From Burkholderia sp. USMB20 (lineage in GTDB: Bacteria; Pseudomonadota; Gammaproteobacteria; Burkholderiales; Burkholderiaceae), in the NCBI RefSeq assembly GCF_000949135.2, contig NZ_JTAN02000012.1, positions 791,731 through 855,730 on the forward strand: a DNA stretch of 64,000 nt. The letters run 5' to 3'. Every line of letters starts with the position of its first letter. Within the stretch, counting starts at the first letter, position 1. Positions 8,268-36,174 of the stretch are shown in pieces. Position numbers and translations under genes: made by a program. Below the pieces are notes generated by a model, which had not been told where the DNA came from, did not search any database, and saw only the letters and a list, made by a program, of their open reading frames with translations.

Positions 8268-9029
8268 TTACCGGCCGCCGCCGACGTCGAGCAGGGCGCC
8301 CGTCGTGTAAGACGCCGCGTCGCCGAGCAGCCAGACGATCGCTTCCGCGATCTCCTGCGCTTCGCCGGCGCGGCCGAGCGGCGTCTGCGCGCCGAGGCGT
8401 GCCGCGCGGCCCGGCTGGCCGCCGCTCGCGTGGATTTCCGTCTCGATCAGGCCGGGGCGCACCGCGTTGACGCGTACGCCGTGCGGGCCGAGTTCCTTCG
8501 CGAGGCCGATCGTCAGCGAATCGACCGCACCCTTCGAGCCCGCGTAGTCGACGTACTCGTTCGGCGAGCCGAGCCGGGACGCGATCGACGACACGTTGAC
8601 GATCGCGCCGCCGCGCCCGCCGCGATCGGTGGACAGCCGGCGCGCGGCTTCGCGCGCGCACAGGTAGGCGCCGAGCACGTTGGTGTCGAACATCCGCCGC
8701 AGCCGTTCGACCGGCATGTCGGCGAGCGGCAGCGACGGCGCGACGATCCCCGCATTGTTGACGAGCGCGTCGAGGCGACCGAACGCGGTCGCGACCGTAT
8801 CGAACATCGCGATGACGTCCGCTTCGTTCGCGACGTCGCCGGCGACGACGCACGCGCGGGCGCCGGCGTCGCGAACGGCTTGCGCGGTCAGTTCGGCGGC
8901 CGCCGCGTCGCGCGCGTAGTTGATGCCGACGTCCCAGCCGCGCCTGGCCGCGAGCACGGCGGTCGCGCGACCGATGCCGCGGCTCGCGCCGGTGATGAGG
9001 ACGGCCTTGCGCTCGGACGGTGCGGGCAT
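8268..9029 (-). CDS. SDR-family NAD(P)-dependent oxidoreductase
   Basis: 253 residues, classical short-chain dehydrogenase length. The cofactor motif TGASRGIG is at residues 14-21, NNAG near 90, the catalytic Ser in NVSSIAS near 147, and Tyr-x-x-x-Lys as YAGSK near 161-165; a PG motif (RPGLIETEIH) follows. The active site is complete. An Arg in TGASRGIGRA suggests NADPH preference; the substrate is unknown. It is the last gene of a minus-strand set starting with the TetR regulator, 22 bases after the LOG-family gene. Confidence 0.92.
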   Translation of the reverse strand: MPAPSERKAVLITGASRGIGRATAVLAARRGWDVGINYARDAAAAELTAQAVRDAGARACVVAGDVANEADVIAMFDTVATAFGRLDALVNNAGIVAPSLPLADMPVERLRRMFDTNVLGAYLCAREAARRLSTDRGGRGGAIVNVSSIASRLGSPNEYVDYAGSKGAVDSLTIGLAKELGPHGVRVNAVRPGLIETEIHASGGQPGRAARLGAQTPLGRAGEAQEIAEAIVWLLGDAASYTTGALLDVGGGR

Positions 9030-9051
9030 CGCGTGCGGCTCCTGATGAAGG

Positions 9052-9633
9052 TTACTTGGCCGCGTCGGTTGCCCATTTGTCCTGGGCGAGCGGCTGGTAG
9101 CGGCGCAGCTGTTCGATCAGCGCGACCGGTTCGGCGTCGATGCACAGCGCGTCGAAGTAGGCCGGGCGCATGAAGCCTTCGTCGACCGTATGGCGCAGCA
9201 GCGCGATCAACGGATCGTAGAACGAATCGATGTTGTACAGCGCGACGGGCTTGCGGTGATAACCGAGCTGCGCCCACGTATAGACCTCGAAGAATTCCTC
9301 GAGCGTGCCGGCGCCGCCGGGCATCGCGACGAACGCGTCGGACAGGTCGGCCATCATCTTCTTGCGGTGGTGCATGTCGGGTACGACGTGCAGTTCGGAC
9401 AGCCCCGTATGGCCGACTTCCTTGTCGACGAGCAACTCGGGGATCACGCCGACCGCACGGCCGCCGGCCGCCATCACTTCATCGGCGATCACGCCCATCA
9501 AACCGACGCGGCCGCCGCCGTAGACGAGCGTGAGGCCCGCATCGACGAGCGCGCGGCCGAATGCGCGCGCGGCGTCCGCATAGACGGGCCGCACGCCGGA
9601 CGACGAGCCGCAGTAAACACAGACTGCCTTCAT
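9052..9633 (-). CDS. LOG-family protein (TIGR00730 Rossmann fold)
   Basis: 193 residues starting MKAVCVYCGSSSGVRPVY, with the nucleotide-binding GGGRVGLMG near residue 45 and the diagnostic PGGAGTLEEFFE (PGGxGTxxE). This is the active-site signature of cytokinin-riboside-5'-monophosphate phosphoribohydrolases. In bacteria such enzymes split nucleoside 5'-monophosphates into base and ribose-5-phosphate. The start overlaps the stop of the TetR gene by four bases, so the two are coupled. Confidence 0.92.
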   Translation of the reverse strand: MKAVCVYCGSSSGVRPVYADAARAFGRALVDAGLTLVYGGGRVGLMGVIADEVMAAGGRAVGVIPELLVDKEVGHTGLSELHVVPDMHHRKKMMADLSDAFVAMPGGAGTLEEFFEVYTWAQLGYHRKPVALYNIDSFYDPLIALLRHTVDEGFMRPAYFDALCIDAEPVALIEQLRRYQPLAQDKWATDAAK

Positions 9634-10385
9634 TGTTTCGTATCCTTCGCGGCGGGCTTGGCGGCGACCGGGCTGCCCGCGGGGCGCGGCGAACCGTCGC
9701 GAGGCGGCAGGTAGTCGGTGAACTGCCGCTTGGGCAGCTTGCCGGAGACGAGATCGTCGAACAGCTGGCGCGAACGGCCGCGCAGGTACGGGGCCATGAT
9801 CGAGATCACGTGCATGCTCACCTGGTGCAGCTCTTCGCGGATCGCGTCCTGGTCGTTGTACTTGCGCGGATGCATCACGTACTGATACGACAGCCAGTAC
9901 GTCGAGATCACCGCCATGTTGGTGGCGATGACTTCGATCTCGGCGGGCGTCGCGACCATTTCGGCGTCGGACACGAGCAGTTCGCACATCTCGTGCGCGA
10001 AGCGCACCTTGTGGCTGATGATCTGCTTGAAGTGCGTCTCGAGCGTGCGGTTGCGCGCGAGCAGGTCGTTGAGGTCGCGATACAGGAACCGGTAGGTCCA
10101 CATGAAATCGGCCATGTACTGCAGGTACGACCAGGTCTCGTCGATCGTCGGACGGTGATCTTCGGGGAAGCGCAGCCGCCGTTCGATCTGCTGCTCGAAC
10201 TGCGCGAAGATGCTGTTGATGATGTCGTCCTTGTTGCGGAAATGGTAGTACAGGTTGCCTGGACTGATTTCCATTTCCTCGGCGATCGTCGTGGTCGTGA
10301 CGTTCGGCTCGCCGATCTCGTTGAAGAGTTTCAACGACAACTCGAGAATCCGTTCGCGGGTGCGGCGGGGAGGTTTCGCTTCCAT
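9630..10385 (-). CDS. TetR/AcrR-family transcriptional regulator
   Basis: 251 residues. The N-terminal helix-turn-helix spans about residues 10-55: RERILELSLKLFNEIGEPN, then TTTTIAEEMEISPGNLYYHFRNK. The C-terminal ligand domain is longer than average and ends in a disordered Pro/Ala/Lys tail (PRPAGSPVAAKPAAKD). It heads an apparent operon with the LOG and SDR genes. A 12-bp palindrome overlapping a minus-strand TATAAT about 100 bases upstream is a natural autoregulatory site. Ligand unknown. Confidence 0.93.
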   Translation of the reverse strand: MEAKPPRRTRERILELSLKLFNEIGEPNVTTTTIAEEMEISPGNLYYHFRNKDDIINSIFAQFEQQIERRLRFPEDHRPTIDETWSYLQYMADFMWTYRFLYRDLNDLLARNRTLETHFKQIISHKVRFAHEMCELLVSDAEMVATPAEIEVIATNMAVISTYWLSYQYVMHPRKYNDQDAIREELHQVSMHVISIMAPYLRGRSRQLFDDLVSGKLPKRQFTDYLPPRDGSPRPAGSPVAAKPAAKDTKQ

Positions 10386-10479
10386 GTCGTCCGGCCCTGT
10401 GTGTGCCGGACTGGCGGGCGCTGCAATCGATGCTGCGGGATTCGTCCGGCGCGGGTTGCTGTTCTAAGTCTGGCGGACG

Positions 10480-10496
10480 ATTATAAACCGCGGTTT
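10480..10496 (-). promoter_or_regulatory. -10 box with abutting palindromic operator for the TetR operon
   Basis: On the minus strand a perfect TATAAT (10485 to 10480) is joined to the 12-bp palindrome AAACCGCGGTTT (10485-10496), which would sit in the spacer of the promoter. No good -35 hexamer is seen. Location and symmetry suit a TetR-type repressor site controlling the operon from 10385 downward. Confidence 0.6.
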
Positions 10497-10577
10497 CCTT
10501 GCATCGGGCGCATTTCGTGATCGCGATGCGTTCCGCGCATGGTGCGCCGCCGCACGCGGGCGGCGGCGCGGGGGTTG

Positions 10578-11114
10578 CTAGAAGCCGAGCCAGCGGGCGA
10601 TCACCGGCCCGAGCACGAAGCCCCACGTCGTCACGCACGCGAACAGCGCGACCGTGACCGCCGCGCTGCCGAGATCCTTCGCGCGCTTCGACAATTCGTG
10701 GCGCTCGAGCGAGATGCGGTCGATCGCGGCCTCGACGCTCGAGTTCAGCAGCTCGACGATCAGCACGAGCAGCACCGACGCGATCAGCAGCGCGCGCGAT
10801 GCGGCGGGGACCGGTGAGAACGCACCGATCGGCAGCATCAGCGCGGCGAGCGTGAGCTCCTGGCGAAACGCGCTCTCCTCGCGGATCGCGACGCGAAATC
10901 CGTTCAGCGAATGCTTGAGCGCGTACCACGCGCGCGTGATGCCGCGGTGGCGCTTGTACGGGTTCGGCGGCAGCGGCGCCAGGCGATCGTCGGGGCCGAG
11001 CGGTTCGTGCGGGTGCACGTCCGCGTCGGCGTGCGGCTCTTCTTCGTCGAACGGACGATGCAGTGGCGCCGTGATGGCAGGGGACGGGGTCTTGTCGTTC
11101 AGGTCTCGTTTCAA
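10578..11114 (-). CDS. dgkA: Diacylglycerol kinase (DgkA family)
   Basis: 178 residues: a soluble N-terminal extension of about 60 residues, then the DgkA core with three membrane helices and the active-site signature LIVELLNSSVEAAIDRIS. It phosphorylates diacylglycerol to phosphatidic acid at the inner membrane. There is no ATG before the core; the likely start is TTG 11114, overlapping the stop of the glycosyltransferase gene as TTGA. It is third in an operon with the PlcP-like phospholipase and glycosyltransferase, a context that supplies diacylglycerol. The N-terminal extension is longer than in E. coli DgkA. Confidence 0.9.
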   Translation of the reverse strand: MKRDLNDKTPSPAITAPLHRPFDEEEPHADADVHPHEPLGPDDRLAPLPPNPYKRHRGITRAWYALKHSLNGFRVAIREESAFRQELTLAALMLPIGAFSPVPAASRALLIASVLLVLIVELLNSSVEAAIDRISLERHELSKRAKDLGSAAVTVALFACVTTWGFVLGPVIARWLGF

Positions 11115-12145
11115 ACGGCGGCACCTTCGGCGGGCGAGTACGCAGTCTTCGGCAGCGGCTTCAGATGCGACGCGAACTGCTCGGACGCCGCGCGCCACGA
11201 GAAGCGTTCGGCCCACGCGCGGGCCGTCTCGCGTTCGATCTTCAGCGCCTCCAGGCAGGCTTCCTGCAGGTCTTCGTGCATCGCGCCGGCAGCGCCCCCG
11301 CCGAGCACGTCGATCGGGCCCGTGACGGGGTAGGCGGCGACCGGCGTGCCGCACGCGAGCGCCTCCAGCAGCACGAGGCCGAACGTGTCGGTGCGACTCG
11401 GGAACACGAACACGTCGGCCGCAGCATACACCTTGGCGAGCTCGGCTTGCGACAGTACGCCAAGATAGTTCGCTTCCGGGTAGCGCGACTTCAGCTCGGC
11501 GAGCGCCGGACCTTCGCCCGCGACCCACTTCGAGCCGGGCAGGTCGAGGCGCAGGAACGCCTCGACGTTCTTCTCGATCGCGACGCGGCCCACGTACAGG
11601 AAGATCGGCCGGGCGGTGTTGAGCACCTTCGACTCCATCGGCCGGAAGATGTCGAGATCGACGCCGCGCGTCCACAGCACGACGTTCGTGAAGCCGAACT
11701 TCTCGAGGTCCTGCTTCACGACCGGGGTCGGCGCCATCACCGCGAGCGACGGCCCGTGGAACCAGTGCAGGAACTTGTAGGTCGCCGACAGCGGAATCCC
11801 GAAGCGCGCCTGCACGTATTCCGGAAAGCGCGTGTGATACGCGGTCGTGTACGGCAGCTTGCGCGCGCGTGCATAGCGTCGCGCGGCGAGGCCGAGCGGG
11901 CCTTCGGTCGCGATGTGCAGCGCGTCGGGGGCGAACGCATCGATCCGCGCGCGCAGCTTGCGGTACGGCAGGATCGACAGGCGGATCTCGGGATAGGTCG
12001 GGCAGGGCACCGTGCGGAATTCCAGCGGCGTCAGCATTTCGACCCGGTGGCCGAGCGCGGTGAGTTCACGGGTGGTGCTCTTCAGCGTGCGCACGACGCC
12101 GTTGACCTGCGGTTCCCACGCGTCGGTGACGATCATGATCTTCAT
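11111..12145 (-). CDS. GT4-family glycosyltransferase (MgtA/Agt-like)
   Basis: 344 residues with GT-B architecture. The N-terminus MKIMIVTDAWEPQVNGVVRTL is typical of bacterial GDP-mannose/UDP-sugar GT4 enzymes that glycosylate lipids. Further markers are TRGVDLDIF near residue 160 and the C-terminal nucleotide-sugar EX7E region FPSRTDTFGLVLLEALACG. No signal peptide is present, so the enzyme is cytoplasmic or membrane-peripheral. It lies 30 bases after the PlcP-like gene and overlaps dgkA. In other proteobacteria the GT4 enzyme Agt next to plcP makes glycosyl-diacylglycerol under phosphate limitation; I infer the same here. The sugar donor is not certain. Confidence 0.88.
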   Translation of the reverse strand: MKIMIVTDAWEPQVNGVVRTLKSTTRELTALGHRVEMLTPLEFRTVPCPTYPEIRLSILPYRKLRARIDAFAPDALHIATEGPLGLAARRYARARKLPYTTAYHTRFPEYVQARFGIPLSATYKFLHWFHGPSLAVMAPTPVVKQDLEKFGFTNVVLWTRGVDLDIFRPMESKVLNTARPIFLYVGRVAIEKNVEAFLRLDLPGSKWVAGEGPALAELKSRYPEANYLGVLSQAELAKVYAAADVFVFPSRTDTFGLVLLEALACGTPVAAYPVTGPIDVLGGGAAGAMHEDLQEACLEALKIERETARAWAERFSWRAASEQFASHLKPLPKTAYSPAEGAAV

Positions 12146-12175
12146 CGCGGCATGTGTCCTGTAAGTGGAGTTGTG

Positions 12176-13114
12176 TCAGGCAGTGGCCTTGGCCTTGCGC
12201 GACGGGGCAGCGGACGGCGCGGTGCGCATCGCCGTCCAGTAGACGACCTTCAGTTCGCCTTCCATCGTCTCGACGAGCGCGGACAGGCTCTCGACCCAGT
12301 CGCCGTCGTTGCAGTACAGCACGCCGTCGATGTCGCGGATCTCCGCCTTGTGGATGTGCCCGCACACGACGCCGTCGCAGCCGCGGCGGCGCGCCTCGTC
12401 GGTCATCACGGTCTCGAACTGCGAGATGAAGTTCACCGCGTTCTTCACCTGATGCTTCAGGTACTGCGACAGCGACCAGTACTGGAAGCCCAGCCGGCTG
12501 CGGATCCGGTTGAACCAGCGGTTCAGCACGAGGATCAGCGTGTAGAGCGTGTCGCCGAGATACGCGAGCCATTTCGCGTGCTGGATCACGCCGTCGAACA
12601 GGTCGCCGTGCACGATCCACAAACGTTTGCCGGCGAGCGTCGTGTGGAACGCCTCGCCGCGCACCTGGATGTCGCCGAACGCGAGGTCGCAGAACTGCCG
12701 CGCGCCTTCGTCGTGGTTGCCCGGGATGTAGACGACCTGCGTGCCCTTGCGCGCCTTGCGCAGCACCTTCTGCACGACGTCGTTGTGCGCCTGCGGCCAG
12801 TACCAGCCTTTCTTCAGCTGCCAGCCGTCGATGATGTCGCCGACGAGGTACAGGTATTCCGAATCGTTGTGGCGCAGGAAATCGAGCAGGTACGGCGCCT
12901 GGCAGCCGCTCGAGCCGAGATGGATGTCGGACAGCCAGATCGTGCGGTAGCGATGGGTGGACGGCTCGGGGTCGTCGCGCTGCGTGACGTGTGCGGCCGC
13001 CGGTTCGTGCGGCGAAAGGGCATCGGTTGCGGCCGAGCCGGACAGGAAGGCGGTGACGGCGCGGGCGCCGAGCGGTTGACGGAACAGGGAGGTCGCGGAC
13101 GTTTTCTGGCCCAT
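12176..13114 (-). CDS. plcP: PlcP-like metallophosphoesterase (phospholipase C type)
   Basis: 312 residues. The calcineurin-like metal site is complete: D63 and H65 (WLSDIHLG), D93 (VGDIIDGW), N133-H134 (PGNHDE), H169 (HGDLFD) and a C-terminal GHIH. The family resembles LpxH, but CQAPYLLDFLRH, WYWPQAHNDVVQK and the long RLGFQYWSLSQYLK segment match the PlcP branch described in rhizobia and marine bacteria, which cleaves phospholipids to diacylglycerol during phosphate starvation. A disordered tail of about 55 residues precedes the domain. I chose ATG 13114, because an upstream ATG at 13168 falls inside the Pho-box-like site. Often annotated as UDP-2,3-diacylglucosamine diphosphatase. Confidence 0.85.
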   Translation of the reverse strand: MGQKTSATSLFRQPLGARAVTAFLSGSAATDALSPHEPAAAHVTQRDDPEPSTHRYRTIWLSDIHLGSSGCQAPYLLDFLRHNDSEYLYLVGDIIDGWQLKKGWYWPQAHNDVVQKVLRKARKGTQVVYIPGNHDEGARQFCDLAFGDIQVRGEAFHTTLAGKRLWIVHGDLFDGVIQHAKWLAYLGDTLYTLILVLNRWFNRIRSRLGFQYWSLSQYLKHQVKNAVNFISQFETVMTDEARRRGCDGVVCGHIHKAEIRDIDGVLYCNDGDWVESLSALVETMEGELKVVYWTAMRTAPSAAPSRKAKATA

Positions 13115-13160
13115 GCATGACTCGCGCCGGTTGACATTACCGGCATTGCGCCATGCGGGC

Positions 13161-13178
13161 GTGACCATGCCGTGACAG
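13161..13178 (-). promoter_or_regulatory. Candidate Pho box before the PlcP-like gene
   Basis: Minus-strand CTGTCAC-GGCA-TGGTCAC: two 7-base direct repeats with an 11-base period, as in the 18-bp PhoB site (CTGTCAT-N4-CTGTCAT). It matches 10 of 14 consensus positions, or 12 of 14 if C is accepted at the last position of each half. It ends 46 bases before the chosen ATG. The following -10 region is weak. Confidence 0.6.
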
Positions 13179-13373
13179 TCACGAGACGTTCTTATTACTG
13201 TCGTCGCGGCGTGTTTAGCAGTGAATGTGGCGGTGTTGCGTAACCTGCCGAACCGACCGGCCTGCGGTTACCGTGCAAGCCGCGCGGGGCGGGCGTGTGG
13301 GCGGTTTCGAGGGGTTTTATATGATGAATGCACGGATGCACGGAGCCGTCCCGCGATCACGCGAACCGCGCGG

Positions 13374-13886
13374 TCAGCGCGGAATCGCGACGACGCGCGT
13401 GCGGGCGATGCGGTCGTGCGGAAACTGGCGATCGCTATGCAGGCGGGCGGCGCCGGCCCATACGACGATCCATGCGGCGGCGAGCGCGAGCGTGACGGGC
13501 ACCGACAGGCCGAGGAGCGGATGCAGTGCGAGCGGCGGCAGGAACCACAGCCAGCCGAGCGCGTAGCGGACGAGCGCGTGGCCGGCGTTCAGCGGCCGGC
13601 CGCTCGACGATTCGAGCCGCAGCCGCCAGGTCTTCATCGGCAGCGTCTGGCCGCCATGGGTCCAGAACCAGACGAAGTACGCGCCGACGACGAGTGCGAT
13701 CCACGCGGCGAGCAGGTTGTGATGGACGAGGCCGTTGCGCTGCTGCGTCGCGAGGCTGAAGGCGAGGGCGGCGAAAAATACGACGCCGAACAGCAGCACG
13801 GCTTCGTACAGCATCGCCGCGAGGCGCCGCCGCACGGACGGCGCGGCGGCGACGGCCGGGGCCTCGGGTGCGGGGGCGCTTGCCAC
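13374..13886 (-). CDS. RDD-family membrane protein
   Basis: 170 residues with the RDD features: RRRLAAMLYEAVLLFGVVFF (an Arg/Asp-rich helix 1, here R-R-L-x-A-M-x-Y-E), then TLPMKTWRLRLESSSGRPLN after helix 2 and a third helix pair near 118-145. Function of the family is unknown; roles in ion exchange or envelope stress have been proposed. It follows DUF3106 by 6 bases and is last in the operon that starts with the ECF sigma factor. Confidence 0.88.
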   Translation of the reverse strand: MASAPAPEAPAVAAAPSVRRRLAAMLYEAVLLFGVVFFAALAFSLATQQRNGLVHHNLLAAWIALVVGAYFVWFWTHGGQTLPMKTWRLRLESSSGRPLNAGHALVRYALGWLWFLPPLALHPLLGLSVPVTLALAAAWIVVWAGAARLHSDRQFPHDRIARTRVVAIPR

Positions 13887-13892
13887 GGCGGG

Positions 13893-14654
13893 TCAGGAAC
13901 CCTTGAACATCGACGGCGCGTCGGCCGGCGACACGGGCGTGACGGTCGCGGGTGCGGGGGCGGTGCCGGACGTGGCCGATGCGGTCACCGGCGGCGCGCC
14001 GGCGCCGACCGATGCGGGCGCCGGTGCCGCAACAGGGTTGCTCGCCGGATGTTCGTGCGAATTGACGAGGCGGCGCACGTCGCGGTCGGCGACGGTCGGC
14101 GGCGCGCTGACGACGCTCGGCCGGCGCCGGCGCTCGGTCGCGGCGAGGCGCTGCTTCTGTTCTTCGGGCAGTTGCTGGTAGGCCTTCCATGCGCGCTCGC
14201 GCGCCTGCGCGGAAAGCTCCTTCGCGCTCTGGTAATTCTCGCGCGCGACGCGGCGCTGCTCGGGCGTCATCCGCGCCCACTCGGACATCCTGTCCTGCAG
14301 GTGTTTCTGCTCATCGGGCGTCAATTTCGCGAAACGGGACGCGATCTTCAGCCATTTGCGCTTGCGCGCATCGCTGAAGCCATCCCACTGATCGGCGAAC
14401 GGCGCGAGTGCCTCGCGTTGCGCGGGCGTCAGGCGCGCCCACGACAGCGGGCCGTTGGCGGCCGGCAGCGGCAGGGGCAGCGGGGCGAGTTCGGTGGTCA
14501 GGCCGGCTGCGGCCGAGGTCGGCGCGGGCGCGCTGCTGGCCGCGGCGGAGACCGTCGCGGGGGGCGGGTTGAATCGGGAATAGGTGGCGACGTAGGAAAT
14601 GGCGATCGCGATCACGCATCCGAAAAATACGGCCAGGCCGCGTTTCTGATTCAC
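13893..14654 (-). CDS. DUF3106 protein: periplasmic helical protein with LTxxQ-like repeats
   Basis: 253 residues. One N-terminal membrane helix (residues 7-25) anchors it; a Pro/Ala linker follows, then a helical region (70-175) with four LTxxQ-like motifs: LTPAQ at 75, LTPDE(Q) at 111, MTPEQ at 129 and LPEEQ at 162, interleaved with Trp 72, 90, 101, 126 and 156. The C-terminal 75 residues are low-complexity. LTxxQ motifs mark the CpxP/Spy/CnrX-type periplasmic stress sensors and chaperones, so a sensor role is a reasonable inference. The gene lies between the DUF3619 and RDD genes in the sigma-factor operon. Confidence 0.82.
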   Translation of the reverse strand: MNQKRGLAVFFGCVIAIAISYVATYSRFNPPPATVSAAASSAPAPTSAAAGLTTELAPLPLPLPAANGPLSWARLTPAQREALAPFADQWDGFSDARKRKWLKIASRFAKLTPDEQKHLQDRMSEWARMTPEQRRVARENYQSAKELSAQARERAWKAYQQLPEEQKQRLAATERRRRPSVVSAPPTVADRDVRRLVNSHEHPASNPVAAPAPASVGAGAPPVTASATSGTAPAPATVTPVSPADAPSMFKGS

Positions 14655-14684
14655 CCGTGCGATCCCCTCGTTATTGTCTGTTTG

Positions 14685-15110
14685 TTAGCGTGTGTGCGAA
14701 AGATACGCGTTGAACCCGTGATCGAGATACGCGTTGAGCGGCAGGTCGTCGCTGAGCATCGCCGCGTCGATGTCGGCGAGTTCGGCGGTGCGCTGCATGT
14801 CTTCCCAGTACGCGATGCCGACGAGCCCCGCGAGCAGCAGCGCGAGCGGCCACGCGCGCAGCAGGCGGCGCGCGAACGACGTCTGCGGACGGCTCGCGGG
14901 CGGCGTGCCGTATGCGGCGGCGGCACCGGCGAAGGCGGGCACGAACACCGGCGCGGTGGCGGCTTCCGGCTTCTTGCGCGCGAGCGCGGCCCGGCGCGCG
15001 ACGGCCAGACGATCGGTGGTCGCGGCAGGCAGCGCCGCGGCACGTTCGTCCAGTGCGCGGCGGACCTTCAGCGCGAATTCGTGTTCTCGATTTACGGGAG
15101 CGGAGCTCAT
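14685..15110 (-). CDS. DUF3619 single-pass membrane protein, possible anti-sigma factor
   Basis: 141 residues. The cytoplasmic N-terminus (1-82) is helical and charged near NREHEFALKVRRALDERAA. One membrane helix follows (about 86-101, AWPLALLLAGLVGIAYW), then a 40-residue periplasmic tail. The ATG overlaps the stop of the ECF sigma gene (ATGA). Size, topology and coupling are those of ECF anti-sigma factors, but no ZAS zinc motif is present and the family has no proven function. Anti-sigma activity is an inference. Confidence 0.8.
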   Translation of the reverse strand: MSSAPVNREHEFALKVRRALDERAAALPAATTDRLAVARRAALARKKPEAATAPVFVPAFAGAAAAYGTPPASRPQTSFARRLLRAWPLALLLAGLVGIAYWEDMQRTAELADIDAAMLSDDLPLNAYLDHGFNAYLSHTR

Positions 15111-15670
15111 AGCGTGATTCCTTTGGCCTTGAGCGCTTGCGCCAGGGCATGGGTGGCTCGCGAGCAGTGCGTCTTGACGCTGCCTTCGGAGCACCCCATT
15201 GCGGCGGCAGTCTCGGCGACATCCATATCTTCCCAATAACGCATCAGGAACGCTTCCCGTTGACGCGTCGGAAGTTTCTGGATTTCTTCGTCGATCAGGG
15301 CCAGAACCTGCTCCCGCTCGAGGCGGTGCTCGGTGCTCTCGACACCTGCATTGTCGTCCGCGGACTCGAGCGTTTCCAGCGGATCGAAGTCCTCGTCGTC
15401 CGTATTGTTGAGCGACGAGAACAACGTGACCCAGGTGTTGCGGACCTTCTGCCGGCGGAACCAGTCGTGGATCGCGTTCTGCAGGATCCGCTGGAACAGC
15501 AGCGGCAGTTCGGCCGCCGGCCGGTCGCCGTATTTCTCCGCCAGCTTGATCATCGCGTCCTGCACGATGTCGAGCGACGCATCGTCGTCACGCACGGCGT
15601 ACGCAGCCTGCTTGAACGCGCGCCTTTCGACGCCCGCCAGAAAGTCGGCGAGTTCCTTGTCTGATGCCAT
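15107..15670 (-). CDS. ECF-type RNA polymerase sigma factor
   Basis: 187 residues with the two sigma regions and no region 1 or 3. Region 2 runs about 8-75 (FKQAAYAVRDDDASLDIVQDAMIK, then LLFQRILQNAIHDWFRRQK). Region 4 is near 125-178 with the helix-turn-helix VAETAAAMGCSEGSVKTH. The linker is unusually acidic (NNTDDEDFDPLETLESADD). It is the first gene of a four-gene minus-strand operon with DUF3619, DUF3106 and RDD genes, and is divergent from ilvI. I chose ATG 15670 (MASDKELADF); longer in-frame forms upstream have no family support. Confidence 0.92.
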   Translation of the reverse strand: MASDKELADFLAGVERRAFKQAAYAVRDDDASLDIVQDAMIKLAEKYGDRPAAELPLLFQRILQNAIHDWFRRQKVRNTWVTLFSSLNNTDDEDFDPLETLESADDNAGVESTEHRLEREQVLALIDEEIQKLPTRQREAFLMRYWEDMDVAETAAAMGCSEGSVKTHCSRATHALAQALKAKGITL

Positions 15671-16022
15671 TCCGTAAAGGTATGCGCTGCGGACTGCGGC
15701 GTGTGAAAGGTCGAAAAATTTCGTAAAACCCGCGGATGCTAACAAATTTTCGCGCGACTTGGCACCGGTTGCGGCTCGCCCCGTTGCTTGCGAGCCGCGT
15801 CCGCGGCCCGCCGGGCGGGGCGCATGATGCGCTGCGGGATATTTTGCTTGACGACCCAATCATGACCCGCTATCGTCAGCGATTCGCAACATGAAGTGAT
15901 GGTCTCATTTGAGGCTGGCCCAAGAAGCCCGCCCTTCAAACTGGACGCGCCGCTTGAACCCGAGCCACAAGCCCGGCAGAGAGCACCCGATCAATTTTTT
16001 GCCGAAAATTCGAAAGGTCAAA
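15671..16022. other. Divergent promoter region between the sigma-factor operon and ilvI
   Basis: 352 bases without a supported gene. It is relatively AT-rich at 15705-15755 and 15990-16022. It must carry the promoters of the ECF operon (minus) and of ilvIHC (plus), but I could not assign hexamers with confidence. I looked for a branched-chain-rich leader peptide before ilvI and saw none. Confidence 0.5.
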
Positions 16023-31747: not shown

Positions 31748-31826
31748 CGCGGGTTTGCTTCGCCAGATCCAACCTGACGGCCGGTTTCCGGTGCGTTAAT
31801 GACAAGATAGTGACGAGACAGACACG

Positions 31827-32582
31827 ATGTCGAAACAACGAACGAAGCGAGTGATCGGCAACTGGAAGATGCACGGCCGGCTGGCCGGCAACCAGGCGTT
31901 GCTGAACGAAGTGGTGCAGGGCGCAGGCGCGGTGGCGGCCGAGACGTCGATCGGCGTGTGCGTGCCGTTCCCGTATCTCGCGCAGGTTCAGGCGCAGCTC
32001 GCCGGCGGCCGTGTCGCGTTCGGCGCGCAGGACGTGTCCGCGCACGAGCAGGGCGCGTTCACCGGTGAAGTGGCGGCCGCGATGGTGGCGGAGTTCGGCG
32101 CGCAATATGCGATCGTCGGTCACTCGGAGCGCCGCGCGTATCACGGCGAGCGCAGCGAAGCCGTCGCTGCGAAGACGCAGCGCGCGCTCGCGGCAGGCCT
32201 CACGCCCGTCGTGTGCGTCGGTGAAACGCTCGACGAGCGCGAAGCCGGTGCGACCGAGCAGGTGGTCGGTGCACAGCTCGACGCCGTGCTGGCCGTGCTG
32301 ACGGCCGACGAAGCGGCGCGCATCGTCGTCGCGTACGAGCCGGTCTGGGCGATCGGCACGGGCAAGAGCGCGACGTCGGCGCAGGCGCAGGACGTACACG
32401 CATTCCTGCGTGCGCGTCTTGCGGCGAAGGGGGCGGCGGACGTATCGGTGCTGTACGGCGGCAGCGTGAAGCCGGACAACGCGGAAGAGCTGTTCGCGCA
32501 GCCGGACATCGACGGCGGCCTGATCGGCGGCGCGTCGCTGAAGGCGGAAGATTTCCTGGCGATCTGCCGGGCCGCGCGTTGA
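31827..32582 (+). CDS. tpiA: Triosephosphate isomerase
   Basis: 251 residues. Active-site motifs are GNWKMHG (Lys14), the catalytic His in IVGHSERR, and the catalytic Glu in [16 protein letters not shown], followed by the phosphate-binding [11 protein letters not shown] and GLIGGASL. It interconverts dihydroxyacetone phosphate and glyceraldehyde 3-phosphate. tpiA-secG order is common in proteobacteria; secG starts 73 bases downstream. Confidence 0.98.
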
Positions 32583-34920: not shown

Positions 34921-36174
34921 ATGGCAGAAATCAAGAACTACACCCTCAACTTCGGCCCGCAGCACCCGGCAGCGCACGGCGTGCTGCGCCTGGTGCTCGA
35001 GCTCGACGGCGAAGTCATTCAGCGTGCCGATCCGCACATCGGCCTGCTGCACCGCGCGACCGAAAAGCTCGCGGAAAGCAAGACCTTCATTCAGTCCGTG
35101 CCGTACATGGATCGTCTCGACTACGTGTCGATGATGGTCAACGAGCACGGCTACGTGCTCGCGATCGAGCGCCTGCTCGGCATCGACGTGCCGGAGCGCG
35201 CGCAGTACATCCGCGTGCTGTTCGACGAGATCACCCGCGTGCTGAACCACCTGATGTGGATCGGCGCGCACGCACTCGACGTCGGCGCGATGGCCGTGTT
35301 CCTGTACGCATTCCGCGAGCGCGAAGACCTGATGGACGTGTACGAAGCGGTGTCCGGTGCCCGGATGCACGCGGCGTACTACCGTCCGGGCGGCGTCTAT
35401 CGCGACCTGCCTGACGCAATGCCGCAATACAAGGCGTCGAAGATTCGCAACGAGAAGGCGCTCGCGAAGATGAACGAAGCGCGCAGCGGCTCGGTGCTCG
35501 ACTTCATCGACGACTTCTTCACGCGCTTCCCGAAGTGCGTCGACGAATACGAAACGCTGCTGACCGACAACCGGATCTGGAAACAGCGTCTGGTCGGGAT
35601 CGGCGTCGTCAGCCCGGAGCGTGCGCTGCAGATGGGCCTGACGGGCCCGATGCTGCGCGGCTCGGGCATCGCCTGGGACCTGCGCAAGAAGCAGCCGTAC
35701 GAAGTGTACGACCGCATGGACTTCGACGTGCCGGTCGGCGTGAACGGCGATTGCTACGACCGCTATCTGGTGCGCGTCGAAGAAATGCGCCAGTCGGTCC
35801 GTATCGCGAAACAGTGTATTGAGTGGCTCCGCAAGAATCCGGGCCCGGTGATGACCGACAATCACAAGGTTGCACCGCCGTCGCGCGTCGGCATGAAGAC
35901 CAACATGGAAGACTTGATTCACCACTTCAAGCTCTTCACCGAAGGTTTTCACGTGCCGGAAGGCGAAGCGTACGCAGCAGTCGAGCATCCGAAGGGCGAG
36001 TTCGGCATCTACCTCGTGTCGGACGGTGCCAACAAGCCGTATCGCCTCAAGATCCGCGCACCGGGCTTCGCGCACCTCGCGTCGCTCGACGAAATGGCGC
36101 GCGGTCACATGATTGCCGACGCCGTCACGATCATCGGTACGCAGGACATCGTGTTCGGCGAAATCGATCGCTAA
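34921..36174 (+). CDS. nuoD: NADH-quinone oxidoreductase subunit D
   Basis: 417 residues, 49-kDa subunit derived from the [NiFe] hydrogenase large subunit. The quinone-site motif [21 protein letters not shown] is at the N-terminus, followed by [20 protein letters not shown] and [12 protein letters not shown]. Together with NuoB it forms the quinone cavity. A 180-base gap with no visible gene separates it from nuoE. Confidence 0.98.

Follow-up and report, generated by a model that had tools for sequence, protein, structure and literature searches.

A candidate phosphate-starvation operon of plcP, an agt1-like gene and dgkA for membrane lipid replacement in Burkholderia sp. USMB20 and its relatives

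We analysed a stretch of 64,000 nucleotides (the window) of Burkholderia sp. USMB20 (contig NZ_JTAN02000012.1, positions 791,731 to 855,730 of the forward strand), which carries on its minus strand three co-directional genes encoding, in order, a metallophosphoesterase, a glycosyltransferase of family GT4 and a prokaryotic diacylglycerol kinase. These genes are considered here as a candidate operon for the replacement of phospholipids by glycolipids at low phosphate. The features of the locus, with positions counted from the first letter of the window, are as follows:

13161-13178, minus strand: Pho-box-like site CTGTCACGGCATGGTCAC, 47-64 bases 5' of the plcP ATG, recognised by consensus, matrix and conservation
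12176-13114, minus strand: plcP, encoding a metallophosphoesterase of PlcP type with 312 amino acids, predicted to act as an intracellular phospholipase C, assigned from Pfam domains, LpxH score, tree and motifs
11111-12145, minus strand: agt1-like gene, GT4 glycosyltransferase and predicted diacylglycerol glucosyltransferase of 344 amino acids, with Glyco_transf_4 and Glycos_transf_1 domains
10578-11114, minus strand: dgkA, prokaryotic diacylglycerol kinase (PF01219) of 178 amino acids with a TTG start

The plcP and GT4 genes are separated by 30 bases, while the GT4 and dgkA genes meet in a TTGA stop/start overlap. A preliminary description of this DNA had given the three co-directional genes with the same gap and overlap, but its start coordinate for DgkA was one codon off, as the TTG lies at 11114-11112 and the next codon starts at 11111. 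About 50 N-terminal residues of the plcP product were weakly conserved, and DgkA carries a variable N-terminal extension of about 50 residues.

The product of the first gene was matched by the Pfam domains Metallophos (PF00149) and Metallophos_2 (PF12850) and was 53.0% identical to P. aeruginosa PlcP (WP_003091510.1, residues 55-290). The closest named loci were nine titled Burkholderia, with PlcP identities of 93-98%. Among 32 matching plasmid records, however, 24 carried the orthologue under the name 'UDP-2,3-diacylglucosamine diphosphatase', the remaining eight having no feature there, and the LpxH-type naming that had been foreseen for this gene was thus found in practice. Together with a weak match to the LpxH profiles (33-34 bits), this name is what speaks for the first gene encoding an additional LpxH or a different lipid A enzyme, in an operon that would make envelope glycans. 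LpxH and PlcP do share the calcineurin-like family and the SDxH, HGD and GHxH motifs, but the scores of the window protein were far below the LpxH cut-offs (33.1 bits for TIGR01854, cut-off 190.35; 34.4 bits for a second model, cut-off 134), and a separate true LpxH above cut-off was observed elsewhere in 59 of 61 relatives (37 of 37 within the genus). The motifs SDxH, GNHD, HGD and GHIH, which we take to hold the metal-binding residues, were present in all 44 PlcP rows of our alignment, the window protein included, whereas all nine LpxH rows had GNRD in place of GNHD. In a tree of these 44 PlcP-type and nine LpxH rows (a tenth LpxH locus, L065, is absent because motif search did not recover it) the two groups split cleanly with a support of 100, and both the window protein and the P. 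aeruginosa protein fell on the PlcP side, in keeping with the PlcP branch first proposed for the 12176-13114 product. The GT4 neighbour and the Pho-type site also fit poorly with a lipid A enzyme. LpxH identity was ruled out on the sub-cut-off scores, the GNHD motif, the separate branch and the separate true LpxH, and we regard an envelope-glycan operon as highly improbable. By these sequence comparisons the first gene of the operon is plcP and not lpxH.

The GT4 product scored above the cut-off of no NCBIfam model, and its assignment comes from its two Pfam domains and from comparison with P. aeruginosa. Over residues 1-335 it was 52.7% identical to WP_023093910.1, the Agt1 protein encoded directly 3' of plcP in that species. 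The plcP-GT4 pair of the window matched the CHARACTERISED pair, the plcP-agt1 region on a P. aeruginosa plasmid record, with identical gene order. The gene after agt1 at this plasmid locus encodes an adenylate/guanylate cyclase, and the locus therefore fits PA3219-PA3218-PA3217, where PA3217 is presumably cyaB. No dgkA was found in 10.7 kb of the P. aeruginosa plcP-agt1 locus. The pair was observed on three P. aeruginosa plasmid records: L110 (NZ_CP137508.1), CP075839.1 and NZ_CP042268.1.

Lipid remodelling by PlcP and Agt is established in other bacteria (PMC8528852, PMC4796936, PMC9239053; these papers, PMC5082522 and PMC7814305 are cited, word counts apart, from the excerpts available to us). 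In P. aeruginosa, PlcP (PA3219) increased 4.6-fold at low phosphate and a second transferase, Agt2 (PA0842), also increased under phosphate stress, while Agt1 expressed alone in E. coli sufficed for the formation of MGDG (glucosyl-diacylglycerol) (PMC8528852). A Pho box precedes plcP-agt1 there (PMC8528852). The window resembles this system (PA3219-PA3218) in its two orthologous enzymes (53% and 53%), their order and the Pho-type site upstream, and differs in that P. aeruginosa has no adjoining dgkA and uses Agt2 to make GADG (PMC8528852). The identity to Agt1 over 335 residues and the shared neighbour order uphold the MgtA/Agt-like GT4 enzyme of the preliminary description, and they support an Agt1-type enzyme that is predicted to glycosylate diacylglycerol (DAG).

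Upstream of plcP, the site at 13161-13178 reads CTGTCAC-GGCA-TGGTCAC on the coding strand and agrees with CTGTCATN4CTGTCAT at 10 of 14 positions. To score it we used a matrix of 18 positions derived from the DNA upstream of pstS, which supplied 49 distinct boxes, with plcP sequences excluded; a pstS box was accepted if it agreed with the known consensus at 10 or more of 14 positions, and 24 of 25 pstS loci had at least one. The site scored 14.4 and ranked fourth of 127,966 window positions. Three other sites in the window scored higher, and the top one (31799-31816, minus strand) lies before a plus-strand gene at 31827, judged by eye to be triosephosphate isomerase-like, but in the opposite orientation, and is likely a chance match. 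Taken alone, the plcP site is therefore suggestive.

Its conservation was far stronger. The best site was placed at -63 to -65 in all 31 same-genus loci examined, and a significant site (best site with a resampling p <= 0.05) was observed before plcP in 74 of 79 named relatives, compared with 17 of 336 control windows (5.1%). A second and more diverse set gave significant sites at 41 of 47 loci. The loci without a significant site were L256, L262, L276, L279 and L283 in the named set and L096, L108, L109, L149, L154 and L162 in the diverse set. Resampled sequences were generated by a first-order Markov model, replacing exact shuffles, with 200 per locus and 100 per control window; the control windows were taken six each from the 56 of 80 named loci with a length of 9,500 bases or more, and one of the 80 loci (L231) had too little upstream DNA to be tested. 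A chance origin, examined with the plcP-free matrix, the resampled sequences and the control windows, was rejected on this conservation across the genus loci and named relatives. The Pho-box-like site claimed earlier thus held up in a PhoB motif scan with an independent matrix as well as across relatives, and we consider it a putative PhoB-binding site, with the phosphate-starvation reading well supported.

The same data bear on a constitutive operon, which would make glycolipid or balance DAG at all times and for which the Pho-like site would be irrelevant in this genus. Such an operon would suit the single site with its 10 of 14 consensus positions, the better-scoring sites elsewhere in the window, and the retention of plcP in 124 of 150 genomes of the window's family, including genomes of about 2 Mb. 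It would leave unexplained a site kept in every one of the genus loci and significant at nearly all named loci against about one in twenty control windows, and we consider it improbable.

Individual plcP loci showed further arrangements. One member of the genus had a second, divergent PlcP paralogue (L108, G008:C6:31624-32355; 47% identity), with no significant Pho site upstream (p 0.77). On a plasmid of Mitsuaria sp. 7 (L111, 212189-213067), plcP had no adjoining GT4; ppk1 followed it directly and a Ppx/GppA gene lay close by, which places this plcP next to genes of polyphosphate metabolism. A PlcP-type gene of S. meliloti (L109, CP090106.1, 2072091-2072936) likewise had no adjoining GT4 and a borderline Pho site (p 0.065), and this locus also carries an acyl-homoserine-lactone synthase and a LuxR regulator. 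The record of L276 (CAMDGF010000010.1) is titled as a Klebsiella pneumoniae metagenome-assembled genome, and this title looks wrong, since contig C10 of G038, a Burkholderiales genome, likewise has a length of 48,950 bases and a plcP start at 35567.

The third gene product matched PF01219 with 109.2 bits (cut-off 22.3) and solved diacylglycerol kinase chains, presumably E. coli DgkA, at 7e-27. It retained the stretches AFRQE, IVELLNS and RAKDLGSAAV, which we take to be catalytic, and no NCBIfam family matched it at E 0.001. Of 150 family genomes, 124 carried plcP, 122 the GT4 gene (E <= 1e-40) and 128 dgkA. By coordinates, plcP and the GT4 gene were adjacent in 122 of the 124 plcP-bearing genomes and dgkA was clustered with them in 112, which confirmed the conservation of the three-gene order; of the 12 genomes without the cluster, two (G190 and G116) represent contig breaks. 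The per-genome match table gave a second dgkA match in 24 of the 112 clustered genomes and a single one in the other 88. Among 80 named loci, plcP-GT4 was observed in 76 and all three genes in 59, some contigs ending too soon to judge.

Linkage of dgkA to plcP was also observed well beyond the family. Among 130 genomes sampled across the order, plcP occurred in 59, dgkA in 103 and both in 52. The two genes lay within 5 kb of each other in 13 of these 52, compared with 0.16 expected from genome sizes, and outside the window's family in 9 of 48 (0.14 expected). The linked genomes of the order were spread over seven families. Outside the order, dgkA was linked to plcP in at least three (G366, G389, G415) of 88 plcP genomes of a phylum sample. 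The order plcP-agt-dgkA was found in the window's family, in families f42 and f38 and in one of three f23 genomes, while other linked loci had plcP-GT-dgkA (f96), plcP-GT-dgkA-GT (f21), dgkA-GT-plcP (f15), dgkA-plcP-agt (f76) or dgkA and plcP as divergent neighbours (f18). In four genomes of family f88 (G353, G373, G491, G494), dgkA and plcP shared a strand without being adjacent and stood about 11-13 kb apart, perhaps not by chance.

A phylogeny of DgkA was built on 125 columns from 29 linked and 47 unlinked rows, 76 in all, with the genus represented by the window, L003 and L044, and it had open forks; L202 gave no match, and L204 and L205 were not included. The label 'linked' required eight changes on this tree, at least three of them via well-supported branches, compared with 23.5 in shuffles. 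A single clade of all 29 linked rows was rejected (p 5e-15). For a single clade of the 22 plcP-agt-dgkA rows the result was marginal (p 0.011), this subset having been named after the tree was seen. We conclude that the link between dgkA and plcP is real and recurs, with differing gene orders and in several lineages of dgkA. By its DgkA the f96 module grouped with f21, and by its PlcP with both f21 and f15, and this suggests that the plcP-GT-dgkA module may have been transferred as a block. Relatives of DgkA were also observed on 247 plasmid records, 82 of them from Klebsiella and 80 from Escherichia, and 143 of the 247 were predicted to be conjugative.

Significant Pho-type sites were present upstream of 7 of the 47 unlinked dgkA genes (L040, L182, L183, L184, L191, L198, L208). 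This proportion is only somewhat above the control background of about 5%, and dgkA was rejected as a general Pho gene.

Whether DgkA takes part in lipid replacement was weighed against the alternative that remodelling by PlcP and Agt is correctly read while DgkA is a mere passenger, the general DAG kinase of the cell placed in the operon by chance. In E. coli, DAG kinase recycles the DAG left by the decoration of osmoregulated glucans or lipid A. A passenger would be consistent with the single dgkA in 88 of the 112 clustered genomes, which may therefore serve general DAG recycling, with the separation of plcP and dgkA in 39 of the 52 order genomes having both, and with the low frequency of Pho sites at unlinked dgkA genes. 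Linkage has recurred in several families, with different gene orders and in separate lineages of dgkA, far over the 0.16 expected; this is difficult to reconcile with chance placement, and the 24 genomes with a second dgkA match have nevertheless retained the copy in the operon. We therefore think a passenger rather unlikely, although it is the most serious of the alternatives considered.

Besides the single copies and the separated genes, several observations weigh against a major part for DgkA in phosphate-controlled lipid replacement. No dgkA match was found in 7 of the 59 plcP-bearing genomes of the order, which marks DgkA as an accessory that the pathway can do without, and P. aeruginosa itself has its plcP-agt1 without an adjoining dgkA. 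At the loci with dgkA ahead of plcP (two in f76 and one in f15), the DNA upstream of dgkA gave no significant Pho site, and dgkA may therefore escape Pho control there. Re-phosphorylation of DAG would moreover spend phosphate that PlcP had saved. As for the lipids themselves, PMC7814305 discusses ornithine lipids as the lipids without phosphorus in the Burkholderia group, and the excerpt of that paper names no Burkholderia glycolipid.

With these points taken into account, we consider it probable that the locus is a PhoB-controlled plcP-agt1-dgkA operon for a membrane lipid swap at low phosphate, with DgkA acting as a salvage valve for DAG. In the proposed sequence of events, phosphate limitation would activate PhoR/PhoB, PhoB would bind at 13161-13178, and plcP, the GT4 gene and dgkA would be co-transcribed. 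PlcP would strip phosphorylated head groups off membrane phospholipids and release DAG, to which the Agt1-type GT4 would add a sugar, yielding a phosphorus-free glycolipid; glucose donated by UDP-glucose is the likeliest sugar. DAG that escapes glycosylation would be converted by DgkA to phosphatidic acid and returned to phospholipid synthesis, which would keep free DAG low and provide a way back. The PlcP and GT4 steps are proposed by analogy with characterised orthologues, PhoB binding and a single transcript of the three genes are presumed, and the valve role of DgkA is presumed from its family and context. A bolder version, in which PlcP and DgkA form a Pho-controlled phospholipid editing cycle, the glycosyltransferase competes for DAG, and DgkA joined PlcP-GT modules several times, is put forward tentatively, as a possibility we hold at somewhat below even chances.

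The surroundings of the locus were also examined. On the 5' side of plcP, the minus strand carries a gene for an RDD protein and a sigma-factor cluster, followed by ilvI and ilvH on the plus strand, and dgkA is followed on its 3' side by genes for a TetR regulator and a LOG-like protein; the sigma factor, ilvI and ilvH were named by eye from their translations. A terminator scan of 10400-13400 gave three sites, every one on the strand opposite to the three genes. A sigma-70 promoter scan of the same interval found none, although such a scan is uninformative for a PhoB promoter, and Rfam gave no match in 9000-16000 at gathering thresholds.

Relative to known systems, the closest parallels besides P. 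aeruginosa include the plcP-agt operons of marine bacteria and methanotrophs, which share PlcP and GT4 in one operon, the low-phosphate response and the DAG intermediate (PMC4796936, PMC9239053). A difference is that neither of these two papers uses the word 'kinase' in its main text. The main texts of PMC8528852 and PMC9239053 also lack 'dgkA'. In the low-phosphate proteome of P. putida BIRD-1, both a DAG kinase ('DagK') and PlcP were enriched, while the excerpt describes neither the gene linkage nor the DgkA type of this enzyme (PMC5082522). A DAG kinase in the low-phosphate response is for that reason not wholly new, which qualifies the earlier emphasis on DgkA as the new element. Neither plcP-agt-dgkA operons nor low-phosphate glycolipids of Burkholderia appeared in the titles or abstract openings of the matches listed in our literature search, which had most subscription journals outside its scope, and this absence is weak evidence of novelty. 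The PlcP-Agt core is thus known from other bacteria, and the built-in return enzyme DgkA looks new as a member of the operon.

If the proposed operon functions as described, phosphate-starvation lipid replacement, known in rhizobia, marine bacteria, methanotrophs and pseudomonads, would extend to Burkholderia and its kin. Named loci with all three genes were found in Burkholderia, Paraburkholderia, Caballeronia, Cupriavidus, Ralstonia and Polynucleobacter, under the misleading LpxH name; the Cupriavidus necator locus L251 is one of them. The operon also offers a possible answer to a question of the pathway, namely the fate of DAG when PlcP output exceeds its use by the transferase. That dgkA has joined plcP repeatedly suggests that the machinery includes a means of disposing of DAG. 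Were the editing cycle to prove true, one operon would set both the extent to which the membrane is converted to glycolipid and the speed of reversal when phosphate returns.

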